From NCBI GenBank assembly GCA_009917695.1, contig JAACJG010000010.1, positions 62,001-126,000 of the forward strand: a stretch of 64,000 bases of DNA, in the 5' to 3' direction. The translations under genes and the position numbers were made by a program. This document shows positions 21,207 to 24,551 of this stretch, piece by piece. The number at the start of each line of letters is the position of its first letter. The first letter of the stretch is position 1. This DNA is from Candidatus Rifleibacterium amylolyticum (GTDB taxonomy: Bacteria > Muiribacteriota > Ozemobacteria > Ozemobacterales > Ozemobacteraceae). The notes under the pieces are model-generated. The model ran no database searches. It saw nothing but the letters and a program-made list of their open reading frames with translations, and had not been told where the DNA came from.

Positions 21207-21241
21207 AGAGATCTCGCACAAAGCCGCAGAGACACAAAGAT
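21207..21241 (+). repeat. Left imperfect terminal inverted repeat of GxxExxY cassette
   Basis: TCTCGCACAAAGCCGCAGAG then ACACAAAGATG lies directly before the GxxExxY gene. Its reverse complement matches the right end (21626-21660) in two blocks: TCTTTGTGTC and a shorter GTGCGAG. The repeat runs into the ATG, so the element's end includes the start codon. Confidence 0.65.
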
Positions 21242-21620
21242 GAACGAGAACGAGATCAGCAGGATAGTAGTAGATTGTGCTCTGAGAATACACAAAGAGC
21301 TTGGTCCGGGATTACTTGAGAGTGTGTATGAATTGCTGCTTGCACATGAGCTTGAGTCTTGTGGTTTAAAAATTGCCCGTCAGGTTCCAGTTAAAATTTC
21401 CTATAAAGGCATTTGTTTTGACGAAGGCTTTAGAATTGACATGCTGGTTGAAGATAAGGTTATTCTTGAACTCAAATCTGTAGAATCTACTTCAAAGGCC
21501 CATAAAAAGCAGGTCTTAACTTATCTCAAACTGACTGGTCTGAAGTTGGGGTTGTTGATAAATTTGGGGGAAGCTCTTATGAAGGATGGCATAACCAGAC
21601 TTATCAACGGCCAGCTTTAG
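21240..21620 (+). CDS. GxxExxY family protein
   Basis: The 126-residue protein has the name-giving motif in HKELGPGLLESVYE (Gly24, Glu27, Tyr30). A core follows that resembles a small PD-(D/E)xK nuclease: FRIDMLVEDKVILELKS and then KKQVLTYLKLTGLKLGLLIN. The family is widespread, sporadic in distribution, and of unproven function. No ribosome binding site precedes the ATG; instead the gene is closely bracketed by imperfect inverted repeats rich in CACAAAG and CTTTGTG. It lies between a complete signalling operon and a convergent lipoprotein gene, which suggests recent insertion of a one-gene cassette. The family call is very confident. Confidence 0.93.
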   Translation: MNENEISRIVVDCALRIHKELGPGLLESVYELLLAHELESCGLKIARQVPVKISYKGICFDEGFRIDMLVEDKVILELKSVESTSKAHKKQVLTYLKLTGLKLGLLINLGEALMKDGITRLINGQL

Positions 21621-21625
21621 TGACT

Positions 21626-21660
21626 TTTCTTTGTGTCCTGGTGTCTTAGTGCGAGGTTTT
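21626..21660 (+). repeat. Right imperfect terminal inverted repeat of GxxExxY cassette
   Basis: TTCTTTGTGTCCTGGTGTCT then TAGTGCGAGG follows the GxxExxY stop codon by a few bases and pairs imperfectly with 21207-21241. The two ends bracket about 450 bases. It also touches the 3' end of the convergent lipoprotein gene at 21662. Confidence 0.65.
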
Positions 21661-21661
21661 C

Positions 21662-24376
21662 TCAGGGGGCGATGGTGGTGCTGGCGATCGACTCGCCTGA
21701 ATAATAGATGATCCAGGTTTTGAAGGTGCCTGCCGAAGGGGTGGAATCGAAGGTAACTTCGAGGTCGCCCCAGTTGCCCTGATTGTATTCGACCAGGCTG
21801 CAGCCAAAACCTTTGATCGACATCGAGCGACTGGTTACCGGGTTTTCACCCATGGGTGTGCCGCGTAATCCTTCTATGCCCGAGACGCCGCCGCGCAGGT
21901 TGATACCAGAGAACTGATGCAGGGTTTTGTTATAATTGGGGAATCCATCTTTCAGCCCCAGATCATCGCAGTAAAGAGCCTTGCCGAAGTTATTGAAAAA
22001 ATCAGAGAAGCTGATGCCTGATGCAAACACGATATTGTTGTAGACATCCTGCAGACCGGTGTAGTGATTGATGGTGTCGATCGTTTCGAGTCTGGCAATA
22101 GCTGACTGGCCGCCATGGTGGTCGAAGAGATACTGAGTAAAAAGATACTGCATGCCGTAGTCGGCATAGCTGGGCTCATCAGGCCAGATGTTGAGCGAGA
22201 CTGTTTCGGGATACTGCAGATACTGCGAAACATAACTGACAACCCGCTGATCTTTCTGAGTAAAGCCGTAACCGGCTTCCTGGCGGGCGAAAATCCCGAT
22301 ACCGGCGTTCTGCCAGCTGGTGCCATCAGGTTCTTTCTGGTTGAAATACATCATGCCTGCCAGTGTTTGCGCAAGAGAACCGTAAAAGTTGTTGCGTTCG
22401 TTTTTATACGAAGTCGGGTTGACATAGATTATCTCGGTGCCGGCCGTGGTAGAAGCGGTCAGATCTTTGTCGCGCGGATCGAAGTAGCAGACCAGCAGTT
22501 CGCCCTGCACTGAGCTTGCCTGGTCGAGAGTATTTGAAACCAGTATGGCAATACGGGGTTGATCGTCAATATTGCCTTCAGCTGGCTTATAGGCTGGTTG
22601 GCCGTTCCAGCAGGCGCTGGCTACTTTGGGATAAATGAGGTCAAATTCAGCCGCAATCGCAGCGGCATCGGTTGGTGTCAGGGCGGTTGTAGTCGATTCA
22701 AAATATACCAGGGCTTTGCTGCTCGAAGCGACGAGGGTTGCCGTAGCGAGAATGTCGTTATCGACATTCCAGGGGTCAGCGCTGGTGAAATCGCGCAGAT
22801 AAATGTTTATGGTATCAGAAGCCGGTTCGGTGAGAGCGGCGCGCAGGCTGGCAGATGGTTTTGTCGGTGTTCCTGTCAGAACAGAACTGCTCAGAAGCAG
22901 CGGGTGGCGGGCTGGTGGTATCATGGCGCGCAGGTTTCCCGGCAGAACGGGCACCAGATCAAAATTACCGCCGAGATAGCCGGTAAAGCTGTAATAGTAG
23001 GTGCCGTCGAGAACCTGGGTTTCGCCGCCATGCAGAACGCTCAGAAAAGCAATGCGATCGGTGGGGGCCAAAGAGGCAATGCGCAGGGTGCCGCCGCCCG
23101 CTACCTGTGCAAAATCATAAATTCCGTAGTCCGACAGATTGACATTGGCGGTGTTGTAGGCGGTAAAGCTCAGCGCGTTGCTGGTAGCGTCGTTAACCTT
23201 AACTCTGACGTCGATGGTGGCGCCGGCGGCCAGCACGGTATTGTCGGGCACCTTGATGATGATTTTGCTCTCGCCGAACGAATCGTTGGCGGTCACTGCT
23301 ATCTCGTAGGTGCCGAACATGACTTTGACATCGTTGCGGTTGTCGCCGAAGTTGTAGCCGTAGAGCGTCAGTGGCACGCCCGGAATAGCACGCTTTGGCG
23401 AAATGTGCACCAGAATCGGCTTGATCGTAATTATCTGGCTCGATATGCCGTCAAGCTGGTATTCGTTGCTTTCGATACGTATCGACAGCAGGCCGGTGCG
23501 GGCGTTGACCGGCAGTTGCACCTGTAGCGTTTTTTCGTCGATCACCGCAGTTACCATACAGTCGGTATCTTTGAGTTTGACGCGGTTGAAGCGGTCGATC
23601 GGGTTGAAGTTGCGCCCGTAAACCGTGATCAGCTGGCCGCCCTGTGCGACAATTGGTTCTGCCCGCAGAATGACGGGTTTGCCGATGAATAGAAGCGGCT
23701 GTGTCTCTTTTGATGTTTCGCCGTTGATGATAACGCGCACCGGGCCGGTTTCAACCTCTGCCGGTGCCTGCACGACGATGCGGTCGTCACGCTGTGAGTT
23801 CCAGTCGATGACCGTTGCTTCTTTGCCGTTGAAGGTGACTTTGCCCATGGTGCTGCCGCAGCCCTGGCAGTAAACGGTTACGATATCGCCGTCGGTTCCG
23901 TAGGTTGGCACCAGTGCCATTACTGAGAAGTCAGGAGAGTGTTGGGCGCTTTGCGCTGGCAGTTTGAAGTTGATGTTTTCGGTAATGCGGCCACTGAGAA
24001 CTCTGACTTCATCTTTGACGCCGAGAGAGTAACCGCTGGCGCGGGCAATTACACGGTAGTCGCCGGCTGGAACCGGGCCGAGCAGATACAGCCCGTTTTC
24101 GTCTGCTACCGCCTGCTTCTCGAAAGTCTCGATTATCGCGCCTTTTATCGGATTGCCGCTGGCTTCAGTTGTGATTGTTCCTTGAATTTTGCCGGCTTCG
24201 AGATCGTCGAACGTCTGGGTCGGCCCGCTGCTGAGGGTTTTGCTCTTGGAAATGCCGGAGCAGCCACAGATAGAGAGCACTGCCAATAAGACAGTCATGG
24301 CAAAGATGAATTTACAGCGGTGACGAAAGGTTCGCAAAAAAAACAGACTGTTCAGGAACACAGACTTGTTATGCAT
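21662..24376 (-). CDS. IPT/TIG lipoprotein with degenerate M30-like peptidase region
   Basis: The protein has 904 residues from ATG 24376; the track's TTG lies 13 codons upstream. A hydrophobic stretch ends in the lipobox-like SICGC, so it is probably an exported lipoprotein. A carboxypeptidase-regulatory-like beta domain (about 40-115, GNPIKGAIIETFEKQAVADENGLY) is followed by three IPT/TIG domains (about 150-420). The last third, from PRIAILVSNTLD on, follows the layout of hyicolysin-type (M30) metallopeptidases. Where those have HExxH and a later Glu, this protein reads SLAQTLAGMMYF and WQNAGIGIFARQEAGYG, so all predicted zinc ligands are gone. It is likely a binding protein rather than an enzyme. 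Confidence 0.75.
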   Translation of the reverse strand: MHNKSVFLNSLFFLRTFRHRCKFIFAMTVLLAVLSICGCSGISKSKTLSSGPTQTFDDLEAGKIQGTITTEASGNPIKGAIIETFEKQAVADENGLYLLGPVPAGDYRVIARASGYSLGVKDEVRVLSGRITENINFKLPAQSAQHSPDFSVMALVPTYGTDGDIVTVYCQGCGSTMGKVTFNGKEATVIDWNSQRDDRIVVQAPAEVETGPVRVIINGETSKETQPLLFIGKPVILRAEPIVAQGGQLITVYGRNFNPIDRFNRVKLKDTDCMVTAVIDEKTLQVQLPVNARTGLLSIRIESNEYQLDGISSQIITIKPILVHISPKRAIPGVPLTLYGYNFGDNRNDVKVMFGTYEIAVTANDSFGESKIIIKVPDNTVLAAGATIDVRVKVNDATSNALSFTAYNTANVNLSDYGIYDFAQVAGGGTLRIASLAPTDRIAFLSVLHGGETQVLDGTYYYSFTGYLGGNFDLVPVLPGNLRAMIPPARHPLLLSSSVLTGTPTKPSASLRAALTEPASDTINIYLRDFTSADPWNVDNDILATATLVASSSKALVYFESTTTALTPTDAAAIAAEFDLIYPKVASACWNGQPAYKPAEGNIDDQPRIAILVSNTLDQASSVQGELLVCYFDPRDKDLTASTTAGTEIIYVNPTSYKNERNNFYGSLAQTLAGMMYFNQKEPDGTSWQNAGIGIFARQEAGYGFTQKDQRVVSYVSQYLQYPETVSLNIWPDEPSYADYGMQYLFTQYLFDHHGGQSAIARLETIDTINHYTGLQDVYNNIVFASGISFSDFFNNFGKALYCDDLGLKDGFPNYNKTLHQFSGINLRGGVSGIEGLRGTPMGENPVTSRSMSIKGFGCSLVEYNQGNWGDLEVTFDSTPSAGTFKTWIIYYSGESIASTTIAP

Positions 24377-24551
24377 GTTTATATTTTTTTCTTCTTTTTT
24401 CAGTATCGATCGCAAAAAGATTGGGCAGAAACATGTGAAATTCTGCCAAATGCTTTTTTTCGTGTCAAGTTTATCAACTTATTTGCCGAAAGGAAAGGTG
24501 AGAAATACTGTAAGACCGTGCCCGGTTTGCAGAAAATAACAGGAGACAAAT

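Follow-up and report, generated by a model that had tools for sequence, protein, structure and literature searches.

PD-(D/E)XK homing endonucleases, such as I-Ssp6803I, are products of small nuclease genes that could spread by cutting sites that lack the gene or differ from it. REPINs, in turn, are doublets of REP sequences found with REP-associated tyrosine transposases (RAYTs; PMC3116915), and the intervening sequence (IVS) of Coxiella is a 444-nt element in which a 28-bp stem surrounds an S23 open reading frame (ORF) (PMC4990558). Here, we describe a unit with features of each of these systems in a 64,000-nucleotide stretch of DNA from Candidatus Rifleibacterium amylolyticum, which was analysed as a whole (the window). 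Its single gene encodes a GxxExxY protein, a member of a common bacterial family that has no known function and is hardly named in the open-access literature. We consider the unit, with a probability of roughly 55%, to be a copy of a widespread minimal mobile cassette that consists of one GxxExxY gene between inverted arrays of 8–10-nt repeats and is probably driven, in a homing-like manner, by its PD-(D/E)XK protein. No prior description of such a cassette was found in the open-access literature by repeat sequences or family names, and our analysis points to a kind of minimal mobile cassette that had apparently gone undescribed. If the cassette reading is true, GxxExxY would be the cargo or the engine of a chromosomal cassette, giving the family a role, and this would account for one class of inverted repeats with short periods in the genomes of many phyla.

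Like REPINs and RAYTs, the unit combines inverted short repeats in a chromosomal, largely intergenic setting with dispersed, apparently non-autonomous doublets and a gene bracketed by the same ends. In contrast to RAYTs, however, which are HUH/Y1 transposases, the sole protein here belongs to the PD-(D/E)XK superfamily, and the ends are arrays of 8–10-nt repeats rather than REP hairpins. With the 23S rRNA IVS the unit shares its size (about 440 nt), complementary termini of 28 nt, a single small ORF, an unexplained spread and the proposal of a mobile element, whereas it differs in lying outside rRNA, in the fold of its protein and in arm mismatches that lack the signature of RNA pairing. One defining feature of each system was tested: where a REPIN/RAYT locus has a Y1/HUH gene beside REP pairs, the only gene between these ends is PDDEXK_3, and where an IVS lies in 23S rRNA, this unit lies between two protein genes, as 10 other loci also lie away from rRNA. 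The stem of an IVS has a counterpart in the complementary termini, but these bear no sign of selection on RNA pairing. The unit is therefore a member of neither group, though it may work like them. Unlike homing endonuclease genes, it is associated with no intron or intein and brings its own inverted terminal arrays. It does have the terminal inverted repeats of insertion sequences and MITEs; we place it among the miniature mobile elements, with a reasonable chance that it forms a class of its own.

One gene between inverted repeat arrays

A repeat search of the window returned the two ends as an inverted pair of 28-nt arms, 79% complementary and separated by 387 nt, that contain TCTTTGTGTC/GACACAAAGA and GTGCGAG/CTCGCAC (Table 1). 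In each arm, about three degenerate 8-nt units follow one another (CGCACAAAG CCGCAGAG ACACAAAG). The left arm ends on the first base of the GxxExxY start codon, the A of ATG at 21240, and the whole unit spans 443 nt from arm to arm, with a single 126-codon ORF inside. The first-pass annotation had described just such a layout, namely one GxxExxY gene bracketed by imperfect inverted ends that share these two sequences in opposite orientation, a left end that reaches the start codon and no transposase, and all of it holds: the gene is recovered by profile searches, and none of the sequence between the arms holds an ORF that can be recognised as a transposase. Randomisation of the end similarity, named there beforehand as a test that could refute the idea, showed the similarity to be rare, with the arm score of 16 reached in 1 of 2,000 dinucleotide shuffles and at 1 of 2,000 random places in the window.

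Table 1 Features of the GxxExxY unit and its flanks, in window coordinates
Feature	Position	Strand	Basis and remarks
Left flank: sigma-54-type response regulator gene, 464 aa	19808..21202	+	Family from sequence only; conserved neighbour that marks the orthologous junction
Left terminal array, ~3 degenerate 8-nt units, CTCGCACAAAGCCGCAGAGACACAAAGA	21213..21240	+	Repeat search, randomisation, genome-wide family; reaches into the start codon
GxxExxY gene, 126 aa, PD-(D/E)XK superfamily	21240..21620	+	Pfam/NCBIfam, invariant columns, AlphaFold2 model
Right terminal array, inverted copy of the left array, TCTTTGTGTCCTGGTGTCTTAGTGCGAG	21628..21655	-	Repeat search, genome-wide family, randomisation
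Right flank: 917-aa protein gene, convergent	21662..24415	-	Keeps the response regulator as neighbour in other genera without the unit

The profile searches assign the protein to PF13366 (PDDEXK_3; E = 3.6e-40, 137.4 bits against a cut-off of 22) and TIGR04256 (E = 2.6e-41, 140.6 bits against 35). The family motif is present as G24-L25-L26-E27-S28-V29-Y30, and the D ... E-x-K pattern of the PD-(D/E)XK superfamily as D67, E77 and K79, which are invariant among 40 aligned sequences. Conserved residues comprise E27 (21318–21320), D67 (21438–21440), E77-x-K79 (21468–21476) and Q91, and the PD-(D/E)XK active site of the window protein appears intact. An AlphaFold2 model (pLDDT 95) predicts an alpha-beta fold, to which Foldseek finds Cas4, lambda exonuclease and related nucleases as the closest solved folds, at modest scores (Cas4 SSO0001, 4ic1, E = 2e-3). 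PADLOC profiles show weak similarity to Cas4 and to a reverse transcriptase (RT)-associated PD-(D/E)XK protein. In contrast to Cas4, however, the window protein is much shorter, and the genes beside it are those listed in Table 1 rather than CRISPR genes.

The ends are dispersed in the source genome, where an IUPAC pattern of them has 40–45 matches, against 0 for a reversed-pattern control, and where GxxExxY genes number only two. The second copy, 53% identical to the first, is also bracketed by such ends. Beside it lie two units without a gene, about 177 and 107 bp long, and elsewhere a compact palindromic pair of ends, again without a gene and about 70 bp long, is located near an S23 gene (L054). 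The shuffles, the genome-wide end matches, the second copy and the gene-less units together show that the feature is real and part of a dispersed family. Around the second GxxExxY copy, three end-bounded units stand in a row, 16 nt apart, with the gene in the middle unit and the outer two gene-less (L002, ~1240–2000; G000:C10, ~22.4–23.3 kb).

Within the phylum, the presence of at least three ends goes with the presence of GxxExxY (Fisher p = 2e-4, shared ancestry being ignored). Two draft assemblies, G012 and G013, have a few ends although GxxExxY was not found in them. G010 has 65 end matches, yet its only GxxExxY genes are of another clade. Three G010 loci were inspected (L160, L175 and L185), and at all three the period-8 end is embedded in another palindromic repeat (GAGACTGTAGCAATGTTGCTGAG ... 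CAGCAACGTTGCTACAGTGTC); this embedding may explain a large part of the 65 matches. Because the inspected G010 ends sit in a different palindromic repeat, copies of the end can also spread otherwise.

Recurrence of gene and ends across phyla

Species genomes were scanned for GxxExxY genes, and the 80 loci obtained represent at least 15 phyla, as judged by record title; at most of these loci inverted short-period ends lie close against the gene. Inverted arms with a score of at least 16 flank 58 of 72 GxxExxY loci, compared with 0 of 59 displaced controls. The observation is confirmed as real and is more general than the window alone shows. In clade 1, arm autocorrelation is highest at lag 8 (0.37, versus 0.25 in controls), and in the other GxxExxY clades, whose arm units include ACCACGAAAGACACGAAAG, CCGCAGATTACGCAGATTA and ACAGGATTAACAGGATT, it is highest at lag 9; the controls have no peak. 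A period-8 unit is found at 60 of 80 clade-1 loci and at 1 of 52 displaced positions. The same division holds inside single genomes: among the 30 that carry both clade types, the period-8 unit is present at 22 of 30 clade-1 copies but at only 4 of the 30 copies from other clades (McNemar p = 4e-5). The sequence and the period of the arm unit thus track the protein subfamily, not the host genome. As this tracking holds within genomes, gene and ends would move or evolve as one block, and it would fit recognition of the ends by the GxxExxY protein. Compared across phyla, the gene and its matched ends recur as a unit, and putative end-only derivatives are dispersed.

The left and right arms of a given site are much more alike than arms taken from different loci (26.9 versus 18.6, p < 5e-5). 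This match at first suggested compensatory coevolution of the arms in place, an idea that we set aside because exchange of whole units explains it better. Carriage by phages or plasmids was likewise rejected, viral contigs holding 1 GxxExxY locus and plasmids 8 in 72,556 records. Tree tests, mostly underpowered with a 120-aa protein, rejected only L218+L219 (p = 0.016).

Occupied and empty junctions

The unit occupies the same junction, between the response regulator and 917-aa protein genes, in three species of the genus, two of them (G001 and G005) besides the source. In other genera both flanking genes are adjacent, with 0–189 nt between them and no unit; exceptions are L046, where 467 nt of other sequence fill the junction, and L050, where one arm-like remnant is left. 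The junction is rearranged in G002, and G004 has no GxxExxY. The empty orthologous sites that the first-pass annotation had proposed looking for therefore exist, the unit being common to three species and missing from this junction in other genera. Fixation of gene and flanks in all relatives and end similarity at chance level had been named as grounds for abandoning the idea; neither applies, given this absence and the shuffles. Between G000 and G005 the GxxExxY gene has a dN/dS of about 0.05, indicating strong purifying selection, and its synonymous divergence (0.49) is not larger than that of a neighbour gene (0.65). On the basis of the shared junction, dN/dS and synonymous divergence, the window copy was most likely present in the common ancestor of these species. 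It would thus be an old copy, inserted between two convergent genes ahead of the radiation of the genus and now passed on vertically under purifying selection. Signs of recent movement are absent from this copy. In G001, a draft assembly, the orthologous GxxExxY (L035/L058) has a frameshift near its start.

Movement is more readily seen elsewhere. At the fabD–fabG junction, scored in 109 Sphingomonas genomes (those matching fabD best, rather than a random sample), 59 genomes carry a GxxExxY unit, 46 have a short junction and 4 have other sequence. Many of the short junctions measure 9–16 nt, others hold unrelated palindromes and four are deleted or solo-arm remnants (L233, L337, L244 and L246); clean empty sites thus occur as well as remnants. 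Parsimony on a flank tree, a quick tree from about 1.1 kb, gives 22 changes between presence and absence. The identity of the units is independent of that of the flanks (Mantel rho 0.03, p = 0.28), in contrast to fabD and fabG, whose identities agree with each other (rho 0.35, p = 0.001). Similarity of the arms goes with that of the gene (0.26, p = 0.001) but shows no correlation with that of the flanks (-0.03). In 35 host pairs whose flanks are at least 91.5% alike, GxxExxY identity is at least 90% in 7, 80–90% in 1 and below 80% in 27. Near-identical hosts can have unchanged junctions around units only about 70% alike. The pair L361/L379 illustrates the pattern, with fabD 93% identical, the right spacer identical at 22 of 22 positions and fabG 93% identical around units that are only 73% alike. 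In these comparisons, units come, go and replace one another as whole blocks whose limits are the arms. Such exchange at a fixed site is the outcome that homing would leave, and it could come about by ordinary homologous recombination or by a cassette-specific reaction. The fabD–fabG junction in Sphingomonas (L217–L246, L304–L383) is an insertion hot spot, and some species have unrelated palindromic repeats there (for example, L220, L307 and L315).

The 30 nearest Hymenobacter genomes also include filled junctions with differing arms, plus empty ones. One Hymenobacter unit (L146, 5938–6426) has near-perfect inverted arms of about 52 bp and is probably a recent insertion. Target-site duplications, which had been suggested as something to look for at collected copies, were not found: none was resolved in the window's genus, Hymenobacter or Sphingomonas, the comparison at the window and at the nearest filled/empty Sphingomonas pairs being limited by highly diverged intergenic DNA. 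No donor/recipient pair from one population was found. The proposal of a mobile unit is thus supported by comparison, mostly at other sites, while the window copy appears old and inherited.

Candidate mechanisms

In the homing-like reading that we prefer, the GxxExxY protein would bind the repeat units of its own ends, with several protomers on the iterated site, and would nick or cut there or at a target with similar arms. Host repair would then copy or exchange the cassette, a process of homing or cassette exchange rather than classical transposition. Copies made up of ends alone would, as non-autonomous derivatives, depend on the GxxExxY protein for their mobilisation. The first-pass annotation had left two routes open. 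Movement by the nuclease-like protein itself is plausible from the conserved active site and the tracking of arm type by subfamily; the one suggestion of movement in trans comes from the gene-less end copies.

A different and unlikely account takes GxxExxY to be a host-beneficial or defence-like gene under diversifying selection that is swapped by homologous recombination, with the arms acting as terminators or recombination handles. Strong purifying selection, the weak PADLOC similarities and the allele-like exchange at a single site are in keeping with it, as is orientation: 42 of 53 units are co-directional with the upstream gene (p = 2e-5), a bias expected if the gene is promoterless and dependent on read-through. 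However, such a locus would not lead one to expect one arm type at unrelated places in many phyla, clean empty sites with solo or deleted units, or the dispersal of gene-less ends.

Another reading, which we regard as rather improbable, is that of a passive unit, MITE-like or cassette-like, that carries GxxExxY as cargo and relies on an unrelated transposase or recombinase acting in trans. In its favour, end-only copies outnumber genes in the source genome, unrelated S23 genes have similar short-period inverted arms, and the G010 end lies within another palindromic repeat. Yet a shared foreign transposase would not yield the tracking of arm type by subfamily inside one genome, and an unsystematic look revealed no candidate transposase linked to the units.

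The Coxiella S23 IVS, with almost the same dimensions as our unit (a 28-bp stem there, 28-nt arms here, with total lengths 1 nt apart), makes it attractive to suppose that, in the transcript, the two arms form a stem enclosing the ORF. The arms of the window unit do pair with each other in a predicted fold (z = -2.06), and both the superior match of same-site arms and the sense orientation bias would suit such an IVS-like RNA element. Pairing selection should favour G.U among arm mismatches, but G.U (86) and A.C (91) are about equally frequent (p = 0.76), and on this test we rejected the RNA stem as the main explanation. Moreover, an Rfam screen of ten flanking regions detected no rRNA, Rfam gave zero matches around the window unit, and whole-unit exchange explains the matching of arms; the probability left to an RNA stem is small. 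That of an ordinary fixed gene with ends alike by chance is negligible, as the locus is indeed stable and vertically inherited in this genus but the shuffles, the genomic end matches (40 versus 0) and the arms across phyla speak against chance.

A wider form of the homing-like reading is more tentative, at somewhat less than even odds: minimal mobile elements of this class may exist throughout bacteria, each with a PD-(D/E)XK nuclease that recognises the short-period terminal arrays with which it coevolves and that spreads through insertion and exchange of the cassette. A sister class would then combine the four-helix S23 protein with period-6/7 arrays. S23 loci outside rRNA have strong inverted arms in 10 of 22 cases, compared with 0 of 18 displaced controls. 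Since S23 genes with period-6/7 inverted arms occur outside rRNA in this phylum, the S23 and GxxExxY units may share an architecture, a link that puts the movement of rRNA intervening sequences, a long-standing question, back on the agenda. S23 (PF05635) genes of the source genome (L054–L056) and elsewhere (L247–L272) also lie between inverted degenerate arrays, with a period of about 6–7 and units such as GTCGTT, GGGATC, TTGTAAC and GGTTATG. Intergenic regions of the source genome (L007–L030) are mosaics in which further short-period repeat families (CGATTACGAGCACG, GGGATCGGG and AAATCTGCGCAATCTGCG) stand beside period-8 ends.
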